IMG/VR virus record: IMGVR_UViG_3300044809_000002
Span: 1 to 37,292 of that record
Reading direction: 5' to 3' (one strand)
DNA length: 37,292 nt
Origin: a virus
Shown here: piece after piece, positions 2,194 through 31,020 of the stretch
Numbering within the stretch: position 1 is the stretch's first letter
How the letters are laid out: every line of letters starts with the position of its first letter
Translations under genes and position numbers: made by a program
Notes under the pieces: generated by a model
Seen by the model: only the letters and a program-made list of their open reading frames with translations
What the model was told of the DNA's origin: nothing
The model's database searches: none

Positions 2194-3240
2194 ATGACAC
2201 GGGCGAATCAAGACTATGGAGCGTTGATTGAAGGCGTCCATCTTGCGGGCTATTCACTGGAGCGAGCCTTTCGGAAGCTCGAATGGCTCTTAGATGAGAA
2301 TCGCTGGAAGACCATTGGGGAGGGTTTTGAAGACGTAAACGCGTTCCTCGACACGATCCAGCTCGACAGCTTCAAGATCATTGCCAACGAGAGAAAAAAA
2401 ATCGCGGAGCGCATAAAGGAATTGCAGCCAGGATCATCGAATCGATCAATTGCAAAAGTGCTTGGCGTACACCACGACACGGTAAATCGCGACCTTGGCG
2501 GAAATCCGCCACTTAGCGGTAAAATAGATAGCCCTAACAAGGGGGTTGAACATAGCTCTGGCGGAAATCCGCCAACATCCCAATTGAGTGGCACTGAAGC
2601 CGCAAAGGCCGTAGAGCGCACCGAAACCAAGGATGAGCGATCACAAACCAAGAAGAACTCACGCGAGTTGCGTGAGGTCGAATTGGGAGAAAAGCAGGCA
2701 GAATTACCAGCGAAGAAATATGGTGTCATATACGCGGACCCGGAATGGCGGTTCGAGGTCTACAGCCGCGACACTGGTATGGACCGCGCTGCGGACAACC
2801 ACTACCCAACATCTGGAACGGATGCGATCTGTGCGAGACCGGTCGCAGATATCGCCGCCGATGATTGCGCGCTTTTCCTTTGGGCTACTGTACCGATGCT
2901 ACCCGACGCGTTGCGCGTCATGGCGGCTTGGGGCTTCGATTACAAGTCACATTGCATCTGGGCAAAGGATCGCATTGGAACCGGCTATTGGTTCCGGAAT
3001 CAGCATGAACTTTTGCTTGTCGGGACGCGCGGCAAGATCCCCGCACCAGCGATGGGGACGCAAGTCGCGAGTCTATTTGATGCGCCAGTCGGTAAGCACT
3101 CCGCGAAGCCTGTTCATTTTTATGAGCTGATCGAAAGTTATTTCCCGACGCTTCCGAAGATCGAATTGAATGCACGCGCAGCTCGCCTCGGTTGGGATGC
3201 GTGGGGGTATGAAGCGCCGACTTCCGAGGCCGCAGAATGA
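2194..3240 (+). CDS. MT-A70-family adenine methyltransferase with N-terminal HTH
   Basis: 348 residues. Residues 1-100 are helical with an HTH at about 81-101 (SSNRSIAKVLGVHHDTVNRD), as in ParB-like or MarR-like phage regulators. A polar linker (about 102-170) carries two GGNPP motifs. The C-terminal domain from 176 is MT-A70-like: YADPEWRFE at 180-188, NHYPT, ALFLWAT, YKSHCIWAKD, GYWFRNQHELLLVGTRG and RLGWDAWG. Such enzymes use SAM to methylate the N6 position of adenine. The catalytic DPPW is here DPEW (182-185). The start overlaps the corrected stop of the upstream gene and the stop overlaps the next methyltransferase start (ATGA, 3237). Confidence 0.88.
   Translation: MTRANQDYGALIEGVHLAGYSLERAFRKLEWLLDENRWKTIGEGFEDVNAFLDTIQLDSFKIIANERKKIAERIKELQPGSSNRSIAKVLGVHHDTVNRDLGGNPPLSGKIDSPNKGVEHSSGGNPPTSQLSGTEAAKAVERTETKDERSQTKKNSRELREVELGEKQAELPAKKYGVIYADPEWRFEVYSRDTGMDRAADNHYPTSGTDAICARPVADIAADDCALFLWATVPMLPDALRVMAAWGFDYKSHCIWAKDRIGTGYWFRNQHELLLVGTRGKIPAPAMGTQVASLFDAPVGKHSAKPVHFYELIESYFPTLPKIELNARAARLGWDAWGYEAPTSEAAE
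2496..2574 (+). repeat. Two copies of a 16-bp hairpin-forming repeat inside the methyltransferase linker
   Basis: TGGCGGAAATCCGCCA occurs at 2496-2511 and exactly again at 2559-2574. Each copy is a 6-bp inverted repeat (TGGCGG/CCGCCA) around AAAT. Both are read in the same frame and encode GGNPP in the linker between the HTH and catalytic domains. The protein repeat may be the cause of the DNA repeat, but identity at every base including wobble positions suggests recent duplication or selection on DNA or RNA. Confidence 0.8.
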
Positions 3241-4508
3241 CGATGGGATCGCATCAAACGTCGATCGGCGGCATGAGATCGAATATTCTCATAGGCGATT
3301 GCCGCGCGCACCTGCCGAAGTTGCCGGCGCAATCCGCGCATCTGTGTGCGACCTCGCCATCTTACTATCAACAGCGTGATTATGGGATGACCGAACAAAT
3401 CGGGCTGGAGAAATCGCCAGACGAATACGTTGCGGAAATGGTTTCGGTGTTCCGGGAAGTCAGGCGCGTGCTTCGCGACGACGGCACTCTGTTTCTAAAT
3501 CTAGGTGATAGTTATGCCAGTTCCACAAAGGGGAGCGGTGGCACTGGTAAATCCACACTTGGTCCGGCTAGCGGCGGCAATGGGATCAGCGACGCAGGAG
3601 TTCTGCGTTCGCAGACGAGGCAGGGCATGCCAGTCCGGCGCATGGATATGTCCGGTCTCAAGCCAAAAGATCTAGTTGGGATTCCGTGGCGTGTAGCCTT
3701 CGCACTTCAGGCGGATGGATGGTTGCTGCGCGATGCAATCGTTTGGGCGAAGCCCAACGGAATGCCTGGCTCACAAAAGGATCGCTGCACGTCGTCTTAT
3801 GAGATGATCTTTCATCTGTCGAAGTCGGCGAATTATTGGAGCGACTTCGATGCGATTAAAACACCGCCGCGCGAATCGTCGCTGATCCGAACCGCGCAGG
3901 ACGTGCAGGCGCAGGCGGGTTCACATCGCGCCAACGGCGGCGGAAAAACCAACGGTGCGATGAAGGCTGTTGGCGTGAAGGCGGCGAGTTCAACCCTTGA
4001 AGGCTCCGGACACGGCCGCCATTCCTACGGCAATGTTCCTCCGAAAGAGCGCCGCACAGACAAGCAGCGCTGGCACTCGCGCCAGCACGCAGGCTTCAAT
4101 GACCGTTGGGATGCGATGAAGCGCGCAGAGCAAATGTCGCGCCCTGCGATGATGCGAAATGTCTGGTTCGTTTCGCCATCAGGATATGACGAAGCACACT
4201 TCGCAGTGATGCCGGATGAAATAGCACGCCGCTGCATTCTCGCCGGCTGCCCCGAGGGGGGGCACGTCTTAGATCCGTTCGGCGGCGCTGGCACAACCGC
4301 GCTTGTCGCCGCGCTGCTCCCCGGCGGGCGCACAAGCACGATCATCGAACTCAATCCAGACTACGCCAAGCTTGCCCAAGTCCGAATCGAAGCGGCGTTT
4401 ATGGGCAAGGAGTCCGGCGCGCGTCACATCGCCAAGCAACTCGGCAAAGATCGGGTGCCGTTCGAACGCGGCACGCTATTCTCAGGAATAGAGGCTGCCG
4501 CAGAATGA
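3237..4508 (+). CDS. DNA methyltransferase, N6-adenine/N4-cytosine beta class
   Basis: 423 residues, start coupled by ATGA overlap; an internal ATG at 3273 (MRSNILIGDC) is an alternative. Motif IV comes first as TSPSYY (residues 39-44), in place of the usual TSPPYY. The middle contains VPW-type landmarks (GIPWRVAFALQADGWLLRDA, IVWAKPN), and the SAM-binding motif I comes late as DPFGGAGTT (346-354) followed by IIELNPDYAKLAQ. This order defines the beta class. A family member would methylate an exocyclic amine of A or C in duplex DNA; target unknown. The long glycine- and serine-rich loop between residues 95 and 140 is typical of the target-recognition part of phage members. Confidence 0.88.
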   Translation: MTMGSHQTSIGGMRSNILIGDCRAHLPKLPAQSAHLCATSPSYYQQRDYGMTEQIGLEKSPDEYVAEMVSVFREVRRVLRDDGTLFLNLGDSYASSTKGSGGTGKSTLGPASGGNGISDAGVLRSQTRQGMPVRRMDMSGLKPKDLVGIPWRVAFALQADGWLLRDAIVWAKPNGMPGSQKDRCTSSYEMIFHLSKSANYWSDFDAIKTPPRESSLIRTAQDVQAQAGSHRANGGGKTNGAMKAVGVKAASSTLEGSGHGRHSYGNVPPKERRTDKQRWHSRQHAGFNDRWDAMKRAEQMSRPAMMRNVWFVSPSGYDEAHFAVMPDEIARRCILAGCPEGGHVLDPFGGAGTTALVAALLPGGRTSTIIELNPDYAKLAQVRIEAAFMGKESGARHIAKQLGKDRVPFERGTLFSGIEAAAE

Positions 4509-4561
4509 CAATTTCAAAATCGCAGACCGGCGCGGCCGGTCACAGGGTAGCGGCGGAATAG
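4505..4561 (+). CDS. 18-codon micro-ORF bridging two early genes
   Basis: ATG at 4505 overlaps the stop of the methyltransferase (ATGA) and the TAG at 4559-4561 is followed at once by the ATG of the next gene at 4562. It encodes MTISKSQTGAAGHRVAAE. The peptide resembles no family. Its perfect position in a chain of stop-start overlaps suggests it is translated, either as a coupling peptide or as the remnant of a deleted gene. Confidence 0.35.
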   Translation: MTISKSQTGAAGHRVAAE

Positions 4562-4966
4562 ATGAACGATCTCGCTAATCTCGACCTTTCGCCTTTCTCG
4601 CATCCGACCCGTTTCGGAGCGCACACGAAAGACATGCGCTGCGTGCTGCTGGAGTCGCCGTTCGCAGGCGATATCCCGGCCAACGTCGCCTATGCGCGGG
4701 CCTGTGTGCGGGATTGTCTGTTGCGAGGCGAAAGCCCGATCGCGTCGCACCTCCTGTTCACCCAAGACGGCATCCTCGACGACAGCCACCCCTCAGAACG
4801 GGCTCACGGCATCAATGCGGGGCACGCCTGGATGCACCGGGCGGATGCGGTGGTTGTTTACACAGACCGCGGAATATCGAACGGGATGCGGGTCGGGATC
4901 AAGCTGGCGGCTTTTCACGGGAAGGTGGTTGAGTATCGCGTCCTGCCTGATGCGGTGGCGCCATGA
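4562..4966 (+). CDS. DUF7768/DUF4406-like protein (nucleoside deoxyribosyltransferase-like fold)
   Basis: 134 residues. The recognisable domain starts at the second methionine (4634): VLLESPFAGD, ANVAYARACVRDCLLRGESP, IASHLLFTQDGILDD and VVVYTDRGISNGMRVGI. This pattern is that of small Rossmann-like phage proteins related to nucleoside 2-deoxyribosyltransferases. The family is mostly uncharacterised; a nucleotide- or nucleoside-binding role is likely. It sits between two DNA methyltransferase genes with stop-start coupling on both sides (TAGATG at 4559, ATGA at 4963). The first 24 residues are not conserved in my memory of the family, so the start could be 4634. Confidence 0.75.
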   Translation: MNDLANLDLSPFSHPTRFGAHTKDMRCVLLESPFAGDIPANVAYARACVRDCLLRGESPIASHLLFTQDGILDDSHPSERAHGINAGHAWMHRADAVVVYTDRGISNGMRVGIKLAAFHGKVVEYRVLPDAVAP

Positions 4967-5811
4967 CCGAGCGCATTGAACATTTAGCGGAAGGCGTGAC
5001 CCTGTATCTAGGCGACTGCCGCGAGATATTGCCTACGCTTGGCAAGGTCGATGCTGTGGTGACGAGCCCGCCGTACAATTTGGGAAACACGAGCGGCGGC
5101 GGATTTCCCGCCAAGAAGATGGGCCACTACTCGCCAGATGCGGGTATGTCGAATCGTGGAGGACAAGGCAAATGGTCGAGGGCATCGGCCGCCGGCGGGC
5201 TTGCACACGGCTACGGCACGCATGATGACGCGATGCCACATGCCGATTATGTCGCGTGGCAAAAGGATATCGTTTCGTTGTGCTGGGCCCAGTTGAATGA
5301 ATCCGGCGCCATTTTCTATAACCATAAGCCGCGAGTGCTTGATGGCTTGCTTGTCACCCCCTTCACATATCTTCCGGCGCTGCCGATCAGACAGGTTGTC
5401 ATCTGGGCCCGCGCGGGCGGAATAAATTTCTCGCCAGCGTTCTACTGCCCTACGCACGAATGGATTGTGATTATCGCAAAGCCTGCTTTTCGGCTTCGCG
5501 ACAAGGCGGCGTCCGGCGCTGGCGACGTTTGGTACATTCCACAAGAGGCTAACGCCGATCATCCCGCGCCGTACCCCCTACAGCTACCGCTTAATGTTCT
5601 CAAGACGACCAGCGCACAATCTGTCCTCGACCCCTTCATGGGTTCCGGGACCACAGGTGTTGCCGCCGTCAAGATGGGCCGCAAGTTCATCGGGATAGAG
5701 ATTGATCAGAGGTACTACGACATCGCCTGTCGACGGGTATCCGACGCGCTCGGGCAACCGGATATGTTCATTAAAGCGCCTTCCCCGATAAAACAGGAGG
5801 CGATGCTGTGA
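4963..5811 (+). CDS. DNA methyltransferase, beta class (canonical motifs)
   Basis: 282 residues. It begins with a typical GVTLYLGDCREILPTL segment, then motif IV TSPPYN (residues 34-39) and, near the C-terminus, motif I DPFMGSGTT (223-231) followed by FIGIEIDQRYYDIACRRV. This order and the intact TSPPY mark it as an N4-cytosine or N6-adenine methyltransferase of the beta class. Residues 40-85 are a glycine-rich insert. ATGA coupling to the gene before and GTGA coupling to the gene after place it in the same operon. No restriction nuclease is encoded nearby, so it looks like an orphan phage enzyme, used for self-protection or regulation. Confidence 0.88.
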   Translation: MTERIEHLAEGVTLYLGDCREILPTLGKVDAVVTSPPYNLGNTSGGGFPAKKMGHYSPDAGMSNRGGQGKWSRASAAGGLAHGYGTHDDAMPHADYVAWQKDIVSLCWAQLNESGAIFYNHKPRVLDGLLVTPFTYLPALPIRQVVIWARAGGINFSPAFYCPTHEWIVIIAKPAFRLRDKAASGAGDVWYIPQEANADHPAPYPLQLPLNVLKTTSAQSVLDPFMGSGTTGVAAVKMGRKFIGIEIDQRYYDIACRRVSDALGQPDMFIKAPSPIKQEAML

Positions 5812-6098
5812 CCGAACGCACCCGCTTCCCGCTTCACACGGAACGTGCCGCAGAAGCCCATCGGTGGGCCGGTATCGGCTGGACCGATTGCGGGGAACAT
5901 CCCTCGCTACCGGGTTGGCGCGTTTTGGAGTGGAGATCTGACAACGGATTTGCTTGGCCGGCCTGTCCTTATGACTCGCCCGAGGCCGCACAGTTTGTCG
6001 AGTGGATGATGGGATTCCCGATCGGGTGGACCGAACTGGCGCCCTCGGAAACGCCGTCGTCCCTTATTTCCCTGAAATCATCGGGCGGGCAATCATGA
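5808..6098 (+). CDS. Small phage protein ending in a cytosine-methyltransferase-like remnant
   Basis: 96 residues, GTG start overlapping the methyltransferase stop. The first 60 residues (AHRWAGIGWTDCGEHPSLPG, WRVLEWRSDNGFAWPACPY) belong to no enzyme I know. Residues 65-75 (EWMMGFPIGWTEL) are the conserved motif near the C-terminus of phage Dcm-type C5-cytosine methyltransferases. The next conserved block of that family (ALGNAVVP and onward) is present too, but in the -1 relative frame, overlapping the last 25 residues of this ORF. The ORF therefore looks like a frameshifted Dcm tail fused to unrelated sequence and kept as a small gene. Confidence 0.65.
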   Translation: MTERTRFPLHTERAAEAHRWAGIGWTDCGEHPSLPGWRVLEWRSDNGFAWPACPYDSPEAAQFVEWMMGFPIGWTELAPSETPSSLISLKSSGGQS

Positions 6099-10541: not shown

Positions 10542-10910
10542 ATGTCCGGCACTTGGGATGATCGATTGGACTCGCGGTTACTGAAGGCGCAGGCATCGGG
10601 TCTGTCGTTTGCTGAGGTTGGCCAAAGGATCGGCGTGACCCGTAGTGCCGCAATCGGTCGGTATCATCGGCTCAAGGGCACGCTCTTTCCATCGCAGGCG
10701 GACGCGGCGCGCCGCAATCATGAACGGGACATCGCGGGACGTGCATGGAAAGAAGCGCGGGCAATGGAGGCGCTGGGGCTCGCGTTGTCTTGCGGCGAGG
10801 ATCGCAACGCCGCTATCAGGCAAGCGCTTGATGCTGGGTGCCGGACCTCGACGCTGGCAAAACACTTCGGCCTCACAAACGGGCGCATCCACCAGATTGT
10901 GAATAAGTAA
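10542..10910 (+). CDS. GcrA-like DNA-binding regulator
   Basis: 122 residues with two HTH segments. Residues 3-44 (TWDDRLDSRLLKAQASGLSF, then IGVTRSAAIGRYHRLKG) match the layout of the GcrA N-terminal domain, where 'WT.ervelLkkLw.eGlSasqIA..lGgvTRnAViGKvhRL' binds DNA in alphaproteobacteria. The C-terminus (AIRQALDAGCRTSTLAKHFG, LTNGRIHQIV) is a second HTH like sigma region 4. GcrA activates promoters with sigma-70 at methylated GANTC sites; the phage protein is shorter and its central part differs. Being the last gene before the head and packaging region, it may regulate late transcription. Confidence 0.65.
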   Translation: MSGTWDDRLDSRLLKAQASGLSFAEVGQRIGVTRSAAIGRYHRLKGTLFPSQADAARRNHERDIAGRAWKEARAMEALGLALSCGEDRNAAIRQALDAGCRTSTLAKHFGLTNGRIHQIVNK

Positions 10911-10922
10911 AACTATAGTTTT
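10909..10922. promoter_or_regulatory. Perfect 14-bp palindrome after the GcrA-like gene
   Basis: AAAACTATAGTTTT overlaps the stop codon of the GcrA-like gene. It is AT-rich in GC-rich surroundings and has no loop, so it is more like a protein-binding site than a terminator. It opens a 231-base stretch (10911-11141) without a confident gene, the best candidate place for a promoter or operator before the next genes. A GANTC site (GATTC) lies at 10950-10954. Confidence 0.4.
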
Positions 10923-11141
10923 CTGCAAATCACTTTGCGGGTATTTGTTGATTCGTTCGGTCGCGCCAGCGTCACGGTTGCGCGGCTTAGGTGTGTGGAT
11001 GGCCAAACCCGTGCCGCTCTATGGCACGTTCTGTAACTGCGACGGGTCGCCACCTACGGCTCTGATGAGCCGGACACAATCGCCTCATTTCTGGCGAAAG
11101 CGAAGCTTTCAAAAACCCAAAAACACCACGAGGCGTTTCGC

Positions 11142-11300
11142 ATGGGCGAAGTCGTCGAATTCCGCCGCAAGCCCGCCACACCACAGGTCAACCCGATCAT
11201 GGCTGGCGCTGAGATGTATTTGATCGGACTCGCCGTCGTCGGGTTGATAACGATAGCGATGATTGATGGGCTGATGGGCGACGATACGAAGCGGCGATGA
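11142..11300 (+). CDS. Small single-helix membrane protein
   Basis: 52 residues: a basic start (MGEVVEFRRK), then one strong membrane segment at about 24-43 (YLIGLAVVGLITIAMIDG) and a charged end (DDTKRR). The TGA makes an ATGA overlap with the next gene at 11297, which is the main evidence for translation. The frame upstream to 11037 also reads well (IASFLAKAKLSKTQKHHEAF) but contains no start codon. Function unknown. Confidence 0.55.
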   Translation: MGEVVEFRRKPATPQVNPIMAGAEMYLIGLAVVGLITIAMIDGLMGDDTKRR

Positions 11301-11503
11301 GCGCGACGATCCTTGTATTTCCAAGGCCAACCAACATCGAAGTGCGGGAACGCAACCGGGCGCGTATCGCTGGGCATCGTAACGGGCAGAACTTCGGTCG
11401 CGTCATTGGGTATGATGGCCGCGACTCCCTCACGCAAGATCACGCGGACCCGGAAGATACGGCGCCTGCCGAGTACGGCGCGCCAGCATGGGATGGCGCA
11501 TGA
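11297..11503 (+). CDS. Small phage protein of unknown function
   Basis: 68 residues between two ATGA overlaps (11297 and 11500). Begins MSATILVFPRPTNIEVRERN, with a basic helix, and ends in an acidic, disordered tail (DHADPEDTAPAEYGAPAWDG). No family recognised. Confidence 0.5.
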   Translation: MSATILVFPRPTNIEVRERNRARIAGHRNGQNFGRVIGYDGRDSLTQDHADPEDTAPAEYGAPAWDGA

Positions 11504-11748
11504 GTGTCCTAGCTCGATGGGTTGTCAAGGTATGGCGCAAGCGAGGCATAGTTGCCACTGAAGCCGCAGCGGATCAGTGGTTGGTGAGTCAAGATGCTGA
11601 GAGACTAGAACGCCTGCGCGCTAGAGGGGCTTTACCGCCAGCGAATCCAGATCGGGGCCACATCCACCATTCATGGATGCATAGTTACGCGGTTCCTTGG
11701 ACATTGGAGAGTTGCAGAAATCCAGATGGTCGCTGTGAAGCCGGTTGA
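11500..11748 (+). CDS. Small basic phage protein
   Basis: 82 residues from the ATG at 11500 (ATGA overlap), preferred over the in-frame ATG at 11488. N-terminus is basic and aromatic (VLARWVVKVWRKRGIVATEA), followed by a helix with Asp/Glu/Arg and a histidine-rich end (GHIHHSWMHSYAVPW). No motif recognised. Confidence 0.5.
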   Translation: MSVLARWVVKVWRKRGIVATEAAADQWLVSQDAERLERLRARGALPPANPDRGHIHHSWMHSYAVPWTLESCRNPDGRCEAG

Positions 11749-24945: not shown

Positions 24946-25283
24946 ACGACGCCGGGACCGAGGGGGAGCATAGCGCAGCTGCGGCAAATATTTGGGCGCG
25001 CTTAGGCCGCAAAGATCTTGCTGAAAAGACAATCCCGGACCTTCCGTCCTTCCCCTGGGTTCTCGACTATCTGTGGACGCTCTTCCACGAGTTTGCCGTA
25101 GGCCTGAAGTCGGACGGAATGGCGCCGGTCCAGGCGGGATGGCGAGACGTACAGGATTGGTGCGAGGTGATGCTGCTGGACCTAGAGCCATGGGAAAAGA
25201 AAGCGCTGGTGCGGCTTGCGAACCTGCGGGCGTCGATTCAGTCGGAAGAGAAACCGAAACCCGACCGTGCCAATAAAAACTAG
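24466..25283 (+). CDS. Tail assembly chaperone G-T, made by -1 frameshift
   Basis: 272 residues if ribosomes slip by -1 at 24873-24879. The first 138 codons are shared with G; from base 24879 the -1 frame reads FFAEAVEELCTYADPVFRAG, then GRKLNDAGTEGEHSAAAANI, WARLGRKDLAEKTIPDLPSF, PWVLDYLWTLFHEFAVGLKS and ends KPDRANKN at the TAG 25281-25283. The T part has no ribosome site or early start codon of its own. Two frames meeting at a canonical heptamer, in the tail-chaperone slot, is the classic dsDNA phage arrangement. Confidence 0.85.
24873..24879 (+). promoter_or_regulatory. Programmed -1 ribosomal frameshift site (A AAT TTT)
   Basis: Zero-frame codons are GCA AAT TTT TTG; the heptamer A AAT TTT has the X XXY YYZ form with X = A, Y = T. 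After slipping, AAT and TTT are read as AAA and TTT, and translation continues in the -1 frame for 134 codons. The following sequence (GCAGAAGCCGTCGAAGAG) may form a stimulatory structure, not evaluated here. Confidence 0.88.
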
Positions 25284-25983
25284 AATCGACCCTATCGCCA
25301 CGAGCATTAACTTGATCGTGGCGAATACGCTTTCGCCGGCGGCTCAGAAACAGGCGGTTGCTAACTTCGCCCGTAGTGCGATTGCGGAAGCGGACGATAC
25401 GAACAGGAGAATCCTGGGCCGCGTCCCGCCGCGGACGGTTACAGTTGATGGACAGCGCGGCGCGGCGCTGGAGAGTGTGAAGCCGAACGGTGGCTCTATC
25501 ATTGTTGAATGGGAAGTGTTCGGTAATGTGCTGATCTGGATAGCTGAAAAACTGGAAGAGCGATCTCCGCGCGGCATTTCTGGAAGGTTTGTTCATTCAT
25601 GGGTGCTGTTCGCGGATGATGTTTTGGTTCTGATCGGTAAAAATGTGCCGCAGGCAGAGCGGTATATGTTCGTCAACACCACGGACTATGCGCGAAAAAT
25701 TGAAGTTGGAAAAACCAAGAGTGGCCGTGACTTTGTAATTCAGGTTCCAAATCGGATTGCCGAGCGAACGGCGCGAGACGCGAAAAGTCAGTTTGGGGAG
25801 GTGGCTAAAATAACCTCCGCATTTGTGACGTTGCAGGATTCCTACAAACTTCAGCACAACCAAGCGTCACGGTCATTTGCTGCTGGCGGCAAGTTGCGGA
25901 TAAGCGCGAGACAGCGACCGGATCGTGTCAAGGGTTCGTCAATCACCTATCCGGCAATTATTGTTTCTCAATTGTCGCGCTGA
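25267..25983 (+). CDS. Tail-region protein of unknown function
   Basis: 239 residues from a GTG at 25267 that overlaps the end of the T frame by 17 bases; the earlier start at 25216 is in the T overlap and unlikely. Content: helices TSINLIVANTLSPAAQKQAV and ARSAIAEADDTNRRILGRVP, then strands PRTVTVDGQRGAALESVKPN and IIVEWEVFGNVLIWIAEKLE. Later, KIEVGKTKSGRDFVIQVPNR and a beta-rich end. Phage proteins with this sequence are seen near tail chaperones; no role is known. It is followed by the antisense cassette. Confidence 0.6.
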   Translation: MPIKTRIDPIATSINLIVANTLSPAAQKQAVANFARSAIAEADDTNRRILGRVPPRTVTVDGQRGAALESVKPNGGSIIVEWEVFGNVLIWIAEKLEERSPRGISGRFVHSWVLFADDVLVLIGKNVPQAERYMFVNTTDYARKIEVGKTKSGRDFVIQVPNRIAERTARDAKSQFGEVAKITSAFVTLQDSYKLQHNQASRSFAAGGKLRISARQRPDRVKGSSITYPAIIVSQLSR

Positions 25984-26903
25984 CGGAATTGATGGATGAG
26001 GCGTTCGCTTAAGAGCGGTTGGGTTTCATAAACGATCTGACTGCGATTGCTACAGGACCCTTTATTGATTCTCCCGCTTCCCATCTGCGAACGATGCGAT
26101 CCGGTGCTGGACCGCTCAGGCCGAGTTTCGTTCCGAGTTGCTTCTGTGTCAGGTTCAACTTTTCGCGGATTGACCTCAGTTCGTCCGCGGTCATCGGCTT
26201 TGGTGGTTCGAAGTTCGGCGGCATCGCGTGAGCCTTTGATGAGAGAGTGTCTGACGGGGCAGGGGTCCGGAACGTCATAGGCGAAAATTGGCGCGGCCGT
26301 GAAATGAGGCTGCACGGAATTGAATAGGCGAGTGTCGATCGGGGAATTGATTGATTTGCCCCAAAGCCAAAGGTCGTCGTCGGTTACAGGCTTATCGAGC
26401 ATGAACCACAGATGGGCAGAGAGCGTAGCCCAGCCGTTTATTCCCGAGCTGCTGGACCACTGGCCCCAAAACGTTACGTCGTGAAATTCGGGCGGGAGCA
26501 AGTCTGCAAGATACTCCATCGCCTCGTCTGGCCTAGTCGCCGCGCAGATGGCTGGTGGTGGGCTGATCTTGTCGAAGTCGAAGCAAACCCATCGTTCCCC
26601 GGCGCTTGATCGGAATGTCGCATCACCATCTTCGCCGGAATACTTCAGGCGCCGGACTGGCCCAGCAGTATCTCCGATGGGCTCGCCCCGAATAACGAAC
26701 GAGCGAGGCTCGCTGCTCAACTGAGTAAGGACTGAAGCGAGGTCTTGGATTGTCACGCAAGTTCGGCGCTCAACGGTGAAGCGCCGCGCCATCTTTGTCG
26801 GCAGTTTAGTGACCGTCCCTGACGTCTCCCTGACAAAGGATTTGGTCGCAAGCAGGCCTTGCGGAACGCTCAAAATCGTCAGGCTGGTAGGTCTGATTTC
26901 CAT
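25968..26903 (-). CDS. Stand-alone archaeo-eukaryotic primase-like protein, antisense in tail operon
   Basis: 311 residues on the minus strand. Residues 65-231 carry AEP/PrimPol-like motifs: VCFDFDK (D109, D111), a helical stretch LLPPEFHDVTFWGQWSSSSG, then LSAHLWFMLDKPVTDDD with S162-x-H164, and SPIDTRLFNSVQPHFTAAP with D190. DxD ... SxH ... hD is the catalytic layout of AEP polymerases. Familiar homologs in phages and plasmids continue into a helicase or end soon after; here recognisable similarity ends near residue 231 (RHSLIKGSRDAAEL) and the last 80 residues overlap the HTH gene in another frame. Function, perhaps replication or a moron/defence role, is inference. Confidence 0.65.
   Translation of the reverse strand: MEIRPTSLTILSVPQGLLATKSFVRETSGTVTKLPTKMARRFTVERRTCVTIQDLASVLTQLSSEPRSFVIRGEPIGDTAGPVRRLKYSGEDGDATFRSSAGERWVCFDFDKISPPPAICAATRPDEAMEYLADLLPPEFHDVTFWGQWSSSSGINGWATLSAHLWFMLDKPVTDDDLWLWGKSINSPIDTRLFNSVQPHFTAAPIFAYDVPDPCPVRHSLIKGSRDAAELRTTKADDRGRTEVNPRKVEPDTEATRNETRPERSSTGSHRSQMGSGRINKGSCSNRSQIVYETQPLLSERLIHQFRQRDN
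26009..26224 (-). CDS. XRE-type HTH transcriptional regulator, nested in the 3' end of the primase-like ORF
   Basis: 71 residues from the ATG at 26224 (AAAGG eight bases before it); the frame is open to an ATG at 26278, an alternative start. LRSIREKLNLTQKQLGTKLG then LSGPAPDRIVRRWEAGESI is a clear XRE/Cro-type helix-turn-helix with the phage-typical extended 'GP.P.RtVRRWE' recognition helix, ending in KGPVAIAVRSFMKPN. Members repress promoters near their gene. It lies wholly inside the other frame of the 311-codon ORF. Probably co-transcribed with the primase-like gene from the promoter region at 26904-27000. Confidence 0.75.
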   Translation of the reverse strand: MPPNFEPPKPMTADELRSIREKLNLTQKQLGTKLGLSGPAPDRIVRRWEAGESIKGPVAIAVRSFMKPNRS

Positions 26904-26904
26904 A

Positions 26905-26961
26905 GGTCAACCATAGGGCAAAAAGGCCTAAAAGGCAAGCGGTCAATTTACCGCTTTGACC
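26905..26961. promoter_or_regulatory. Dyad and GGTCAA repeats upstream of the antisense cassette: candidate operator
   Basis: AAGCGGT-caattt-ACCGCTT is a perfect 7-bp inverted repeat at 26937-26956. GGTCAA occurs at 26905-26910 and 26941-26946, and inverted (TTGACC) at 26956-26961. On the minus strand the 26941 copy reads TTGACC, like a -35 box. The elements flank the divergent starts of the primase-like gene (26903) and the tape measure gene (27001), where a repressor would act. Confidence 0.45.
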
Positions 26962-27000
26962 CGGCTTTTCGCTCCAAAATCACGCTCGAAGGCTCGTAAA

Positions 27001-30000
27001 TTGGCAACTTCGCAAGAAGCCATCAGCCGACTGTCGATTCAGTCCACCCTTACGGGTGAGGCTGAAGTGACGGCTGGGCTAAAGCGGATTTCCGCTGCTC
27101 AAGATGGCGTAGCTGTGTCGTCGTCGTCGACTGAGAAGGCGACGGTTTCGCTGGAGAAGTCGTTTGCGAGCATCGAGCGTCGTTATGTTGCCGGCGTTGC
27201 CGCTCAACAGCAGTACGAAAAAATTCAACGTCAGGTGAATGCCGCCGTTGCACAGAATCCTGCGTTACAGGAACGCGCGAACGCGATTCTAGCTGCAGCG
27301 GCGCAACGCCATGATGCGCTTTCCAATTCTCAAAAGGCGATGGGAGTCGTCGCCAATGACTTGAACAGTCGTATCCAGGCGAATGCCGGATCGTTCGGTG
27401 TGCTGGGCCAGGCAATGAGTGCGTTAGGCCCCGTTGGGGTTGGCGTGGCGGCAGTGATAGGTGTTGTAATAGGCGCGATGTACGCCATGTCCAGCGCAGC
27501 TCACGCGCTTGCTGAAAAAGCAAAAGAGCTTCGCGAGTTTTCTGAAGCGACGGGCCTGACGACCATTCAATTCCAGGCGCTTAGATCGGAGGCCGGAAAG
27601 TTCGGCGTCGATGCTGAAACATTATCGAAAGGTCTGACAAAATTTACGGCGGGATATGACGATCTGCGCAAGGGAGGCGGCAACCTCCTAACAGACATTC
27701 GAAAAATCAATCCGGCGCTCGCCGAGCAGATGCAGGTTGCGACGGATTCCGCAACGGCATTCACGCTGTTCGGACAAGCTGTCCAGCAGACGAGTAATAT
27801 CTTCGAAAGAAACGCGCTTCTCAAAGCAGGGATGGGGCGGGGTTCCGCTGTGTTCGGCGCGTTCTTCGAGAGTGCTCCGGATGTGAACAAACTTGCGAGT
27901 TCATTCGCTGCGGCTGGCAAAGGTATCGACGACGGTCTGATCAAACGGCTATCGAAGCTTCAAGTCGAGATCGACAAAACAACCGCGGCTGCCAAAAATA
28001 CGTTTGCCAGCATCTTCGCGGAAAGCACGCTGCAGGAAGAAAAGACGTATGCCGAAGGGTTGCTGACGATCGCAACGCGTTTGAAGGAAATTTCGAACGC
28101 TAAGGCCCCGTCATGGCTGAGCCAGGCCATACGGGTTGCTCAGACCGGATCGTTCGACCCGGCGACGCAGGCGAGAACGTCACTGCGGCAAGGAATGCAG
28201 GTTGGCGCGGAGTCGTCGTCCATCGCTGAAATAATCTCCGATGCCGTGCCTCGAACTCGCAGTCATAGTCAAATCGTTTCAGATTCGTTTATCGGTCCCA
28301 CGGCACCCGCCGCAAAGACGGCTGAAGCGCTTGCGGCTGATTTGAAGAATCTCATTGGCGTCCTTGGTTCGGCTGCCGCACCTTCCGAAAGGCTGGCAGC
28401 GAGCATCGCAGAACTCGGCATCAAGGCAAAAGAGGCTGGGCTCGGCGCGGACATTCTAGCGCGCGGGATCGCGGGACTGAAGCTTGATGATGCCATTGCG
28501 CGGCAGAGCGCTCACAATGCGACGCTGGGCGCCGCTGCATCCGTTACGGATATTATGAAGGAGAAAACTCTCTCGCTTACAAAGGCGAGGCAGCAGGACT
28601 CCACACTTACGGATGCGCAGATCGCCAACGTGATGCGGGTCGCGAAAGAGCAGGCGCTCGGCACTTACCAAATTCAGACGCAGATCGACGGCGAGAAAAC
28701 CCGGATTGCCACGCTGTTCATGGGGACGGAAGCCGCGACTTCCTATGCCACCTCGCAGTCCATCATCAACAAGGCGATTCAGGACGGCAAGCCGCTCAAC
28801 GATAACGAGATAGATCAGATCAAAGCGAAGGCGGATGCACTCGCAAAAGTGAAGGTCCAAGGCGACCTTTACGCCGACATGACGCGGACGGCGCAACAGT
28901 CCGCAGCATCGTTCTCAAACGACCTCATCTCCGGACTCGGCCAAGGCCAAACGGCCGTTGAATCGTTGCACAACGCGTTCAAGAACCTCGCGAGTACACT
29001 AACAAGCAGCGCTCTGAAAAGCCTGTTAGATGGTGACTTTATTTCGGTTATTTGGGCTGGCATCAAAGGCATCGCCGCCGCAGCCGCTGCTATCTTCAGC
29101 GCCAACACCAGCTCAAGCGGCGAGAAGTGGTTAAAGCAGCAAACCGAGAGCAGGGATTCCCGTCTTTCCGACGTCGCACAGCGCTCTGCGATGATCGGCG
29201 TCGATACCAACACAAGGGCCGGCGCCATCCTCGCTCAGGACGCTGAATTCCACCGCCAGCGCATCGCCGAAAACAAGGCGAATGGGCTGGCAATGAACTC
29301 GCTGCTGCAGGTCCAGGTCCAAGAGCGCAACCAGCTTTTGAAGGATTGGGACCAGAAGGATATCGATCTCGTCAAGGCAAATGCGGACGCAAAATTGGCG
29401 ATCGAAAAAGCCGCGAATGATCGCGCGCTTGGTTTCCAGAACCGGCTCTTCGCCGCAACGAACGATTTCTCGACGCTTGAAGGCCAGCTTGCAGCATTCG
29501 ACCGCACCGCGAGCCAGGAGCGTCTTGTGGAGGCCGCGAACGACAACGCCAAGCTTGCCGACCTCGACGCAGCGAGTGCCGCAGAGCGCTTCAACGTCAT
29601 CAAGTCCTATAACGAGAAGATCGTTGCAGACGCAGAGACTACGGCAAAAGCGCAGCAGGACGCACTCAACGGCACTGCGAAAAACATCGTCGAGTTCGTA
29701 AACGGGCTCTATGCGGGGCCTTCTTCAACCGAGTCGCCTACGGCGCGACGCGCGGCAGCGGGGACCGTTTACAATACCCAACTTGCGCTGGCGCAGACAG
29801 GAGACGCAGGCGCGCAGGGCAGGATCACGCAAGACGCACAAAACCTTTTAGACGCCGAGCGTGCAATCAGCGCCTCGTCCGAGGCGTTCCAACTGTTGAA
29901 AGGTAACGTTGCAGCCCAGCTTCTATCCCTGCCTGCGGTACAGAGCACGACCGACCCGTCCGTTCAAGCGATGCGGGATGTGCTCACGGCAATCAACATC

Positions 30001-31020
30001 GGAAATGCGGCGTTGAATGTCATCAACACGACGACGGGCGGCACCACGAGCGCCGTGAACGCCGCCAATTCGGTTGGGACCTTGACCGGAGTAATTTTGC
30101 CGGCGGTGAACGCAGGCAATGCCGCGAACGTCGCAGCGGCTCTGCAGTCCTACTTCAATCAGATCGATCCGAGCGGGAAGCTGTCGGACATCTTTAGTGT
30201 AGGCAACTCAGCCAACGCCTATGCGAGAAACACCAGCGACTTCACGAGGCTCGGCAACTCCAATACCGAAAACATTGCCGTCAATATGGGCGGGACTAAA
30301 GTCGCGACGCTCGAAGGCAACGTTACGCTTGATGCGATCAGAGCATTGCAGAACACGGCGACCAGCCAACTGTTGCTGTTGACCAGCGCCCTGGCTCCGA
30401 CTTCGAACGCCGTTACTATCAACTATACGACCGCGAACGCTCAAACCAGTCTGCCGACTAAGGATCACACCACATTCACCGATCAAATGCTGACAGCGCT
30501 CTATAAGATCGTCGTCAACACTTGGGCGACTGCCGGAAACACTGCGTATATCTCCGGAGCTATAGGACGCGATGGTACGAGGGCTTATGGCGGCTTGGTC
30601 ACGGGACCTGGTACAGCGACTAGTGACTCTATCACGATGGGCTTGTCCAATCGTGAATATGTCATCCAGAACGCCTCTGTTGAAAAGTTCGGCGTCGGCT
30701 TCTTCGATCAGTTGAACGCCGGCATCATGCCGCGCTCAATTGGGAACGATAACTTCCGTCCCATCAATGTAGCGGCTCCGGTGTTCCGGGGCGGCGGAAA
30801 TGGCGACGGCGCGGAGCTTCGCGCCATTCGCGAGGAATTGAGGGCTGTTCGCGCCGAGTTGGCAGCCTTCCGCCAGGAGAACGGCGTTAACACGATGAGG
30901 GCCGCTCGCCTCGTCGGCGATAAGGTCGACGATGCTAAGGACACAGTCAAGACGCAGACCGGTACACTCGCCGCGCAAGAGCGCCAGAGCAATCGTGAGC
31001 GCAAAGTAGCGAACGGATAA
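27001..31020 (+). CDS. Tail tape measure protein
   Basis: 1339 residues from a TTG at 27001; the frame is open from 26956, but an AGG site precedes 27001 and the protein starts like its family (LATSQEAISRLSIQSTLTGE). It sets tail length, fills the tube and may reach the membrane at infection. Early coiled coils with YVAGVAAQQQYEKIQRQVNA, a hydrophobic stretch at about 130-165 (GPVGVGVAAVIGVVIGAMYA) and another near 680-700 (VIWAGIKGIAAAAAAIFSAN). The C-terminus is GREYVIQNASVEKFG-like, then coiled coil ELRAIREELRAVRAELAAFR. At about 0.15 nm per residue the tail would be near 200 nm. The cassette upstream separates it from the chaperones. Confidence 0.93.
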   Translation: MATSQEAISRLSIQSTLTGEAEVTAGLKRISAAQDGVAVSSSSTEKATVSLEKSFASIERRYVAGVAAQQQYEKIQRQVNAAVAQNPALQERANAILAAAAQRHDALSNSQKAMGVVANDLNSRIQANAGSFGVLGQAMSALGPVGVGVAAVIGVVIGAMYAMSSAAHALAEKAKELREFSEATGLTTIQFQALRSEAGKFGVDAETLSKGLTKFTAGYDDLRKGGGNLLTDIRKINPALAEQMQVATDSATAFTLFGQAVQQTSNIFERNALLKAGMGRGSAVFGAFFESAPDVNKLASSFAAAGKGIDDGLIKRLSKLQVEIDKTTAAAKNTFASIFAESTLQEEKTYAEGLLTIATRLKEISNAKAPSWLSQAIRVAQTGSFDPATQARTSLRQGMQVGAESSSIAEIISDAVPRTRSHSQIVSDSFIGPTAPAAKTAEALAADLKNLIGVLGSAAAPSERLAASIAELGIKAKEAGLGADILARGIAGLKLDDAIARQSAHNATLGAAASVTDIMKEKTLSLTKARQQDSTLTDAQIANVMRVAKEQALGTYQIQTQIDGEKTRIATLFMGTEAATSYATSQSIINKAIQDGKPLNDNEIDQIKAKADALAKVKVQGDLYADMTRTAQQSAASFSNDLISGLGQGQTAVESLHNAFKNLASTLTSSALKSLLDGDFISVIWAGIKGIAAAAAAIFSANTSSSGEKWLKQQTESRDSRLSDVAQRSAMIGVDTNTRAGAILAQDAEFHRQRIAENKANGLAMNSLLQVQVQERNQLLKDWDQKDIDLVKANADAKLAIEKAANDRALGFQNRLFAATNDFSTLEGQLAAFDRTASQERLVEAANDNAKLADLDAASAAERFNVIKSYNEKIVADAETTAKAQQDALNGTAKNIVEFVNGLYAGPSSTESPTARRAAAGTVYNTQLALAQTGDAGAQGRITQDAQNLLDAERAISASSEAFQLLKGNVAAQLLSLPAVQSTTDPSVQAMRDVLTAINIGNAALNVINTTTGGTTSAVNAANSVGTLTGVILPAVNAGNAANVAAALQSYFNQIDPSGKLSDIFSVGNSANAYARNTSDFTRLGNSNTENIAVNMGGTKVATLEGNVTLDAIRALQNTATSQLLLLTSALAPTSNAVTINYTTANAQTSLPTKDHTTFTDQMLTALYKIVVNTWATAGNTAYISGAIGRDGTRAYGGLVTGPGTATSDSITMGLSNREYVIQNASVEKFGVGFFDQLNAGIMPRSIGNDNFRPINVAAPVFRGGGNGDGAELRAIREELRAVRAELAAFRQENGVNTMRAARLVGDKVDDAKDTVKTQTGTLAAQERQSNRERKVANG

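Follow-up and report, generated by a model that had tools for sequence, protein, structure and literature searches.

In each published Aca family an inverted repeat lies within the core promoter, which the Aca protein represses (PMC9410906); the sites of Aca1 and Aca2 overlap the -10 and -35 elements (PMC8434428), and acr-aca operons have been likened to TA operons (PMC9410906). In S. aureus, antisense genes with their own promoters, nested in operons ("noncontiguous operons"), control prophage defence, as in tha/ith (PMC11087260).

The cassette described here, in which a primase-like AEP gene is followed by a small XRE-type HTH gene, lies in the IMG/VR virus record IMGVR_UViG_3300044809_000002, positions 1 to 37,292 of which (37,292 bp) constitute the window. 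With the acr-aca operons of Aca1, Aca2, Aca3 and Aca10 it shares the order of effector first and small HTH autorepressor second (autorepression in the cassette being putative), an inverted repeat within the core promoter, exact in three of the four known cassettes and degenerate in the fourth, and a variable insertion site in mobile elements, temperate phages included. It differs in having an AEP-fold effector without a known anti-CRISPR homologue, in its antisense orientation and in an HTH protein not assigned to an Aca family, the likeness being one of sequence and predicted fold. The cassette also resembles tha/ith in being antisense, with a putative promoter of its own, and nested in a phage operon, an arrangement that suits switching between lysogeny and lysis; however, the proteins are unrelated and in tha/ith the antisense gene is the inhibitor.

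The AEP domain itself is homologous to those of PHROG 16950 and of AEP primase-helicases from phages and plasmids, among them T5-like replication origin binding proteins (phrog_3712), with which it shares the catalytic residues and a C-terminal DPxxxR motif. Most of the relatives examined are proteins of 750–1300 aa with a helicase or of 300–430 aa with a PriCT-like region, whereas the cassette AEP stands alone (∼230–265 aa), antisense in a tail operon and accompanied by its own HTH gene. Mycobacterial PrimPolC, LigD PolDom and the PrimPol of phage S-2L have the AEP fold in common with it, but no sequence similarity to them was detected and their genomic context is different. No published description of the cassette was found in the open-licence literature.

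The cassette and its insertion slot

The plus strand of the window carries a head-tail-lysis gene run, which the AEP ORF opposes from the minus strand, flanked on one side by a tail gene that ends at 25983 and on the other by the tape measure gene. The features of the region are as follows.

25267–25983, plus strand: tail gene next to the cassette (phrog_16336), start probably GTG 25267
25984–27000: inserted cassette region of about 1.0 kb (1,017 bp), between the phrog_16336 tail gene and the tape measure gene
25968–26903, minus strand: stand-alone AEP primase-like ORF, 311 aa (PHROG match, AlphaFold2 model, fold searches, codon score)
about 26211–26903, minus strand: conserved AEP domain, residues 1–231
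26009–26194, minus strand: small XRE HTH gene, 61 aa from ATG 26194 (HTH_3, conserved start, fold)
from 26224, minus strand: alternative HTH start ATG with AAAGG upstream, giving 71 aa
from 26278, minus strand: beginning of the longest HTH ORF
26910–26915, minus strand: -10-like hexamer TATGGT (4/6), overlapped by the operator
26914–26930: palindrome TAGG[C/G]C-N5-G[C/G]CCTA, putative operator for binding by the HTH protein
26933–26938, minus strand: -35-like hexamer TTGCCT (4/6), its register relative to the operator similar in four cassettes
27001–31020, plus strand: tape measure gene, start corrected (probably) to TTG 27001 by homology to L011

The original prediction had placed the AEP gene between chaperones and the tape measure gene; the tape measure side of this description stands, while the gene directly upstream is the phrog_16336 tail gene and not a chaperone. 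The early genes of the window encode methyltransferases, a replication initiation protein and an antiterminator, a terminase gene is also present, and the phage is of an alphaproteobacterial type. Near the left end (2194–6098) lies a cluster of several DNA methyltransferase genes or gene pieces, together with a nucleoside 2-deoxyribosyltransferase-like gene. No integrase match was present in the window record. A search of 385 alphaproteobacterial genomes yielded neither an AEP of stand-alone size (the open frames there being of 335–1306 aa) nor any relative of the tail gene beside the cassette, an empty result that carries little weight.

Alignment-based scans identified the AEP and HTH pair in three further IMG/VR contigs, which, with the window, make up the four known members, one of them on a 7.6 kb fragment:

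L026, IMG/VR 3300035673_000004: AEP 60% and HTH 51% identical to the window
L027, IMG/VR 3300046490_000098: AEP 52% and HTH 44% identical to the window
L049, IMG/VR 3300037424_000750: AEP 47% and HTH 56% identical to the window

The true relatives came from the alignment scan; a single-sequence scan of viral contigs gave distant relatives only, and a first scan of genome contigs gave none. In all four phages the pair runs against the head/tail genes and the AEP gene precedes the small HTH gene, with an extra ORF between the two in L027. Integrases are encoded by the L026 and L049 phages. Two insertion slots are used: the cassettes of the window and L049 lie 3′ of a phrog_16336-like gene (slot 1), and those of L026 and L027 between a stopper-like gene and a phrog_16336-like tail gene (slot 2). 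The search for the pair at other loci, which the original prediction had called for, thus returned three more phages and two slots.

In nine relatives (L012–L020) the phrog_16336 and tape measure genes directly abut, with a gap of -13 to +2 nt, and the window therefore holds a clean, roughly 1.0-kb insertion in a moron slot. The closest phage relative of the window, L011, has flanking genes that are 73% (phrog_16336) and 67% identical and holds in the same slot (10757–11585) two unrelated small antisense ORFs of 72 and 95 aa, the longer one with an apparent signal peptide, which make up a different moron; no AEP was found in its record. The tape measure alignment with L011 begins at MATSQEAIS; the start that had been called mechanically, 26956, is near the region of the cassette promoter. 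No terminal repeats that would explain the insertion were found. In Azospirillum phage Cd, gp46 (L010 31071–31526) is likewise an antisense ORF; it has an apparent signal peptide and sits immediately ahead of the tape measure gene, which suggests that this slot is used widely; despite the same position and orientation, gp46 is unrelated to the AEP and was ruled out as a relative. The idea of an independent antisense moron is thus borne out by a cassette that close relatives lack, that separates conserved genes and that is found in two slots.

The AEP protein

PHROG 16950, annotated "DNA primase", matches residues 7–227 of the AEP ORF with an E value of 9.5e-26. The match covers positions 4–222 of the 843 in the profile, corresponding to its N-terminal quarter, and PHROG 16950 has no other match in the window record. 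A helicase region C-terminal to the AEP domain is absent, in agreement with the original description of a helicase-free protein, as is a PriCT domain. Pfam and NCBIfam gave no match in the ORF, and L028, the one AEP-family protein tested, had none in Pfam. D109, D111 and D190 are invariant across an alignment of 19 AEP relatives, and S162-x-H164 is represented by S-x-H in 4/4 cassette AEPs and by the histidine in most other relatives in this alignment; the residues originally singled out as an AEP signature are thus all present.

Structure prediction and fold searches, proposed at the outset as a check, gave an AEP-like result. The AlphaFold2 model has a pLDDT above 90 over about residues 1–231 and mostly below 60 beyond. 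The leading Foldseek matches were LigD polymerase domains (E 6e-4) and the AEP domain of S-2L PrimPol, and against predicted viral structures phage replication origin binding proteins and primases were returned (best E 2e-13). The VIA-align rows shown were AEP primases with modest Z values of 4.5–6.2, S-2L PrimPol reaching 6.2; they include 5op0 and 6sa1, which we take to be mycobacterial stand-alone AEPs. When the AEP was compared with PDB sequences by HMMER no relative emerged, and fold comparison alone found relatives there. As predicted fold, sequence homology and motifs agree, the assignment to the AEPs can be regarded as secure despite the modest Z values, and the first gene of the cassette is predicted to encode a nucleotidyl transferase of AEP fold that lacks a helicase but has every catalytic residue, presumably active as an enzyme.

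Beyond residue ∼228 the AEP frame has a non-coding-like codon score of -0.05, compared with +0.11 for the core, and the ORF residues past ∼231 are read-through over the HTH gene. The AEP similarity had been said to end where the HTH gene begins; the PHROG match does indeed stop at residue 227, which corresponds to the alternative HTH start, ATG 26224.

The four cassette AEPs group in a single clade (bootstrap 95, SH-aLRT 99), which lies within a wider set of AEPs linked to helicase or PriCT-like regions, from which we infer that the stand-alone form probably arose once, through loss of the helicase. The window and L026 AEPs are the nearest pair on the tree (95/79), yet they occupy different slots. 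The pN/pS ratios were 0.37–0.53 for the AEP and 0.37–0.68 for the HTH protein, with synonymous sites at or near saturation. A further AEP that stands alone, 228 aa long and encoded by an unrelated phage (L002 9854–10540), was set aside, since it falls outside the cassette clade in a distant lineage and no HTH gene was identified beside it. AEP-helicase and AEP-PriCT proteins were also observed in alphaproteobacterial plasmids, phages and genomes (L028, L032–L034, L040, L042, L043 and plasmid loci L006–L009). The cassette AEP lies outside replication modules in 4/4 phages; neither consistent fusion to a helicase nor confinement to replication modules, which would have spoken against the original prediction alongside a non-AEP structure, was found.

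The HTH gene and its putative operator

HTH_3 matches the nested ORF (3.5e-5, above the cut-off), and the HTH frame has a codon score of +0.10. The alignment of the four HTH proteins begins at MT-x-x-E-[LF]-R in each, which suggests that the start at 26194 is the one used. In L026 and L049 the AEP gene stops 56–74 nt inside the HTH gene, and in L027 the two are 337 bp apart. The gap in L027 holds a third gene (4393–4737, plus strand) of about 114 aa without a confident family match, which may be a second effector. Because the AEP frame past ∼228 is not coding-like and the genes of the relatives overlap by 56–74 nt or not at all, the "nested" arrangement is a by-product of an unconstrained AEP ORF tail. 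The original prediction was therefore right in that an XRE-type HTH gene is present in another frame, but the nesting does not stand as a special feature. The possibility of a programmed frameshift that joins AEP to HTH was rejected, the genes being separate or slightly overlapping in the relatives.

The best PDB sequence match of the HTH profile was Aca3 (E 0.0022 over 40 positions). With a model of mean pLDDT 77, the best fold rows were Aca10 (Z 8.8, rmsd 1.6 Å over 56) and HigA2 (Z 8.8), which are tied, as rows within Z 1 of each other are counted; further rows were SO3848, Aca2 (7.7), controller proteins (about 7.4), the C-domain of MqsA and Aca1. Since rows within this range are tied, the predicted fold points to a small autorepressor-type XRE protein of no particular family, its likeness to Aca being no greater than that to HigA2 or other XRE proteins. 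An MqsA-family HTH was weakly matched, and MqsA, NadS and HipB-like models scored far below their cut-offs. A single-sequence scan with the HTH protein found no relatives, and the neighbours of HTH genes in three bacterial genomes were uninformative.

The window palindrome, read on the cassette strand as TAGGCC-TTTTT-GCCCTA, lies directly upstream of the AEP start with its 3′ arm overlapping the -10 element. The same register is seen in L026 (TTGACT..TAGGTC-CATTG-GACCTATAAT), where a -10 element, TATAAT, stands at the same spacing as that of the window, and in L049 (TTGACG..TAGGTC-AATTA-GACCTACAAT). The consensus TAGGNC-N5-GNCCTA matches once in the window, where 0.01 matches are expected, and among 65 loci it occurs only in cassette loci, being exact in the window, L026 and L049. 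Moreover, a strict composite of promoter and operator matched only the L026 and L049 contigs among 2.9 million viral contigs. The operator of L027 is degenerate (8/10, shuffle p 0.034), and its HTH protein is also the most divergent. A strict promoter scan of the window listed no promoter, and its -35 and -10 hexamers are weak at 4/6 each. In the window and L026 the ATG comes 6 nt after the -10 element, and the cassette mRNA is therefore probably leaderless. The palindrome, conserved in the promoter regions of three cassettes, upholds the earlier claim of regulatory DNA belonging to the cassette, and we infer that the HTH protein represses the cassette promoter.

Possible roles of the cassette

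The architecture of the cassette is well supported, and we put at roughly even the prospect that it represents an autoregulated two-gene accessory operon, or moron, lying antisense in a tail operon and composed of a helicase-less AEP and a small XRE autorepressor. Upon entry of the DNA into a cell without repressor, the cassette promoter would fire at once, and AEP enzyme and HTH protein would both be produced from the overlapping genes. A dimer of the HTH protein would bind TAGGNC-N5-GNCCTA over the -10 element and throttle the operon, a low level persisting in the lysogen, and in late lytic growth tail operon transcription against the cassette should lower its expression further. The AEP would most likely act on DNA, by priming or gap filling, in phage–host or phage–phage conflict; as its role there, early counter-defence has a slight edge over superinfection control.

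By analogy, the operon logic looks more like that of acr-aca or type II TA systems than that of a lysogeny repressor with cargo; with the effector first, a small HTH second and a palindrome over the -10 element, counter-defence is therefore at least as likely as defence. The more specific proposal of a novel class of phage conflict operon, with a helicase-free AEP as effector of counter-defence or superinfection control, an Aca-like autorepressor and silencing by antisense late transcription, is tenable, its chances falling somewhat short of even. Known Acrs are mostly small, non-enzymatic proteins, and a 230-residue AEP effector would to our knowledge be unprecedented. The neighbourhood of the cassette showed neither a known Acr gene nor any other gene recognised as anti-defence, and PADLOC-DB 2.0.0 gave no match for the AEP and weak generic matches only for the HTH protein.

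An AEP made in the lysogen might instead block or corrupt the replication of an incoming phage, with antisense late transcription turning it off on induction. For such a superinfection or defence moron the noncontiguous operons of S. aureus prophages provide a parallel, and the probably leaderless promoter, the integrases of two cassette phages and the close relatives without the cassette all fit; the lack of a PADLOC match for the AEP, of any defence system with a stand-alone AEP effector in the open-licence literature, and the restriction that strong autorepression would place on steady expression in a lysogen nevertheless leave it doubtful. Alternatively, the AEP could be an auxiliary enzyme that primes phage DNA synthesis or fills gaps, held at a low level by the autorepressor. 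Its nearest relatives are phage and plasmid primase-helicases, its catalytic residues are conserved, and mycobacteria have stand-alone AEPs with gap-repair roles. However, none of the four stand-alone phages has the AEP in a replication module, and presence of the cassette does not track that module: the window and L026 phages have related replication initiation proteins of their own, the L049 phage carries the cassette without a relative of that protein, and L011, the nearest phage relative, has no cassette. A replication or repair role is thus less likely.

A TA-like module, in which a toxic AEP is neutralised by the HTH protein that represses the operon, would account for the gene order (toxin first, as in HigBA and MqsRA), the gene overlap and the operator in the promoter, all features of type II TA systems, as well as for an XRE partner that folds like HigA2 (Z 8.8) and weakly matches the MqsA-family HTH. 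We nevertheless hold it improbable, as the AEP is neither RelE-fold nor another known toxin fold, the HTH protein (61–71 aa) has no extra toxin-binding domain, and the MqsA, NadS and HipB-like models fell far below cut-off. That the locus is a functionless, decaying fragment of a primase-helicase, stuck in the tail operon, might be supposed from a similarity that spans only the N-terminal quarter of the 843-position family and from the ORF tail that is not coding-like. Yet the same domain boundary and HTH partner recur in four phages, with purifying selection, intact catalytic residues and a promoter palindrome that is exact in three cassettes, and this conservation makes decay very unlikely indeed.

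The autoregulated accessory operon remains our favoured reading, and by analogy the cassette stands as a good candidate for a weapon or shield of phage–bacteria conflict that has so far escaped recognition. Following Aca genes to their neighbours ("guilt by association") has proved fruitful in the discovery of anti-CRISPRs and of further anti-defence genes, and the same operon logic here points at AEP primases, a class unlinked to such operons in the open-licence literature searched. If the AEP is the effector, helicase-less primase-like enzymes would have to be counted among the proteins of phage conflict, and a cassette inserted antisense in a late operon would become a recognisable signature for finding more.
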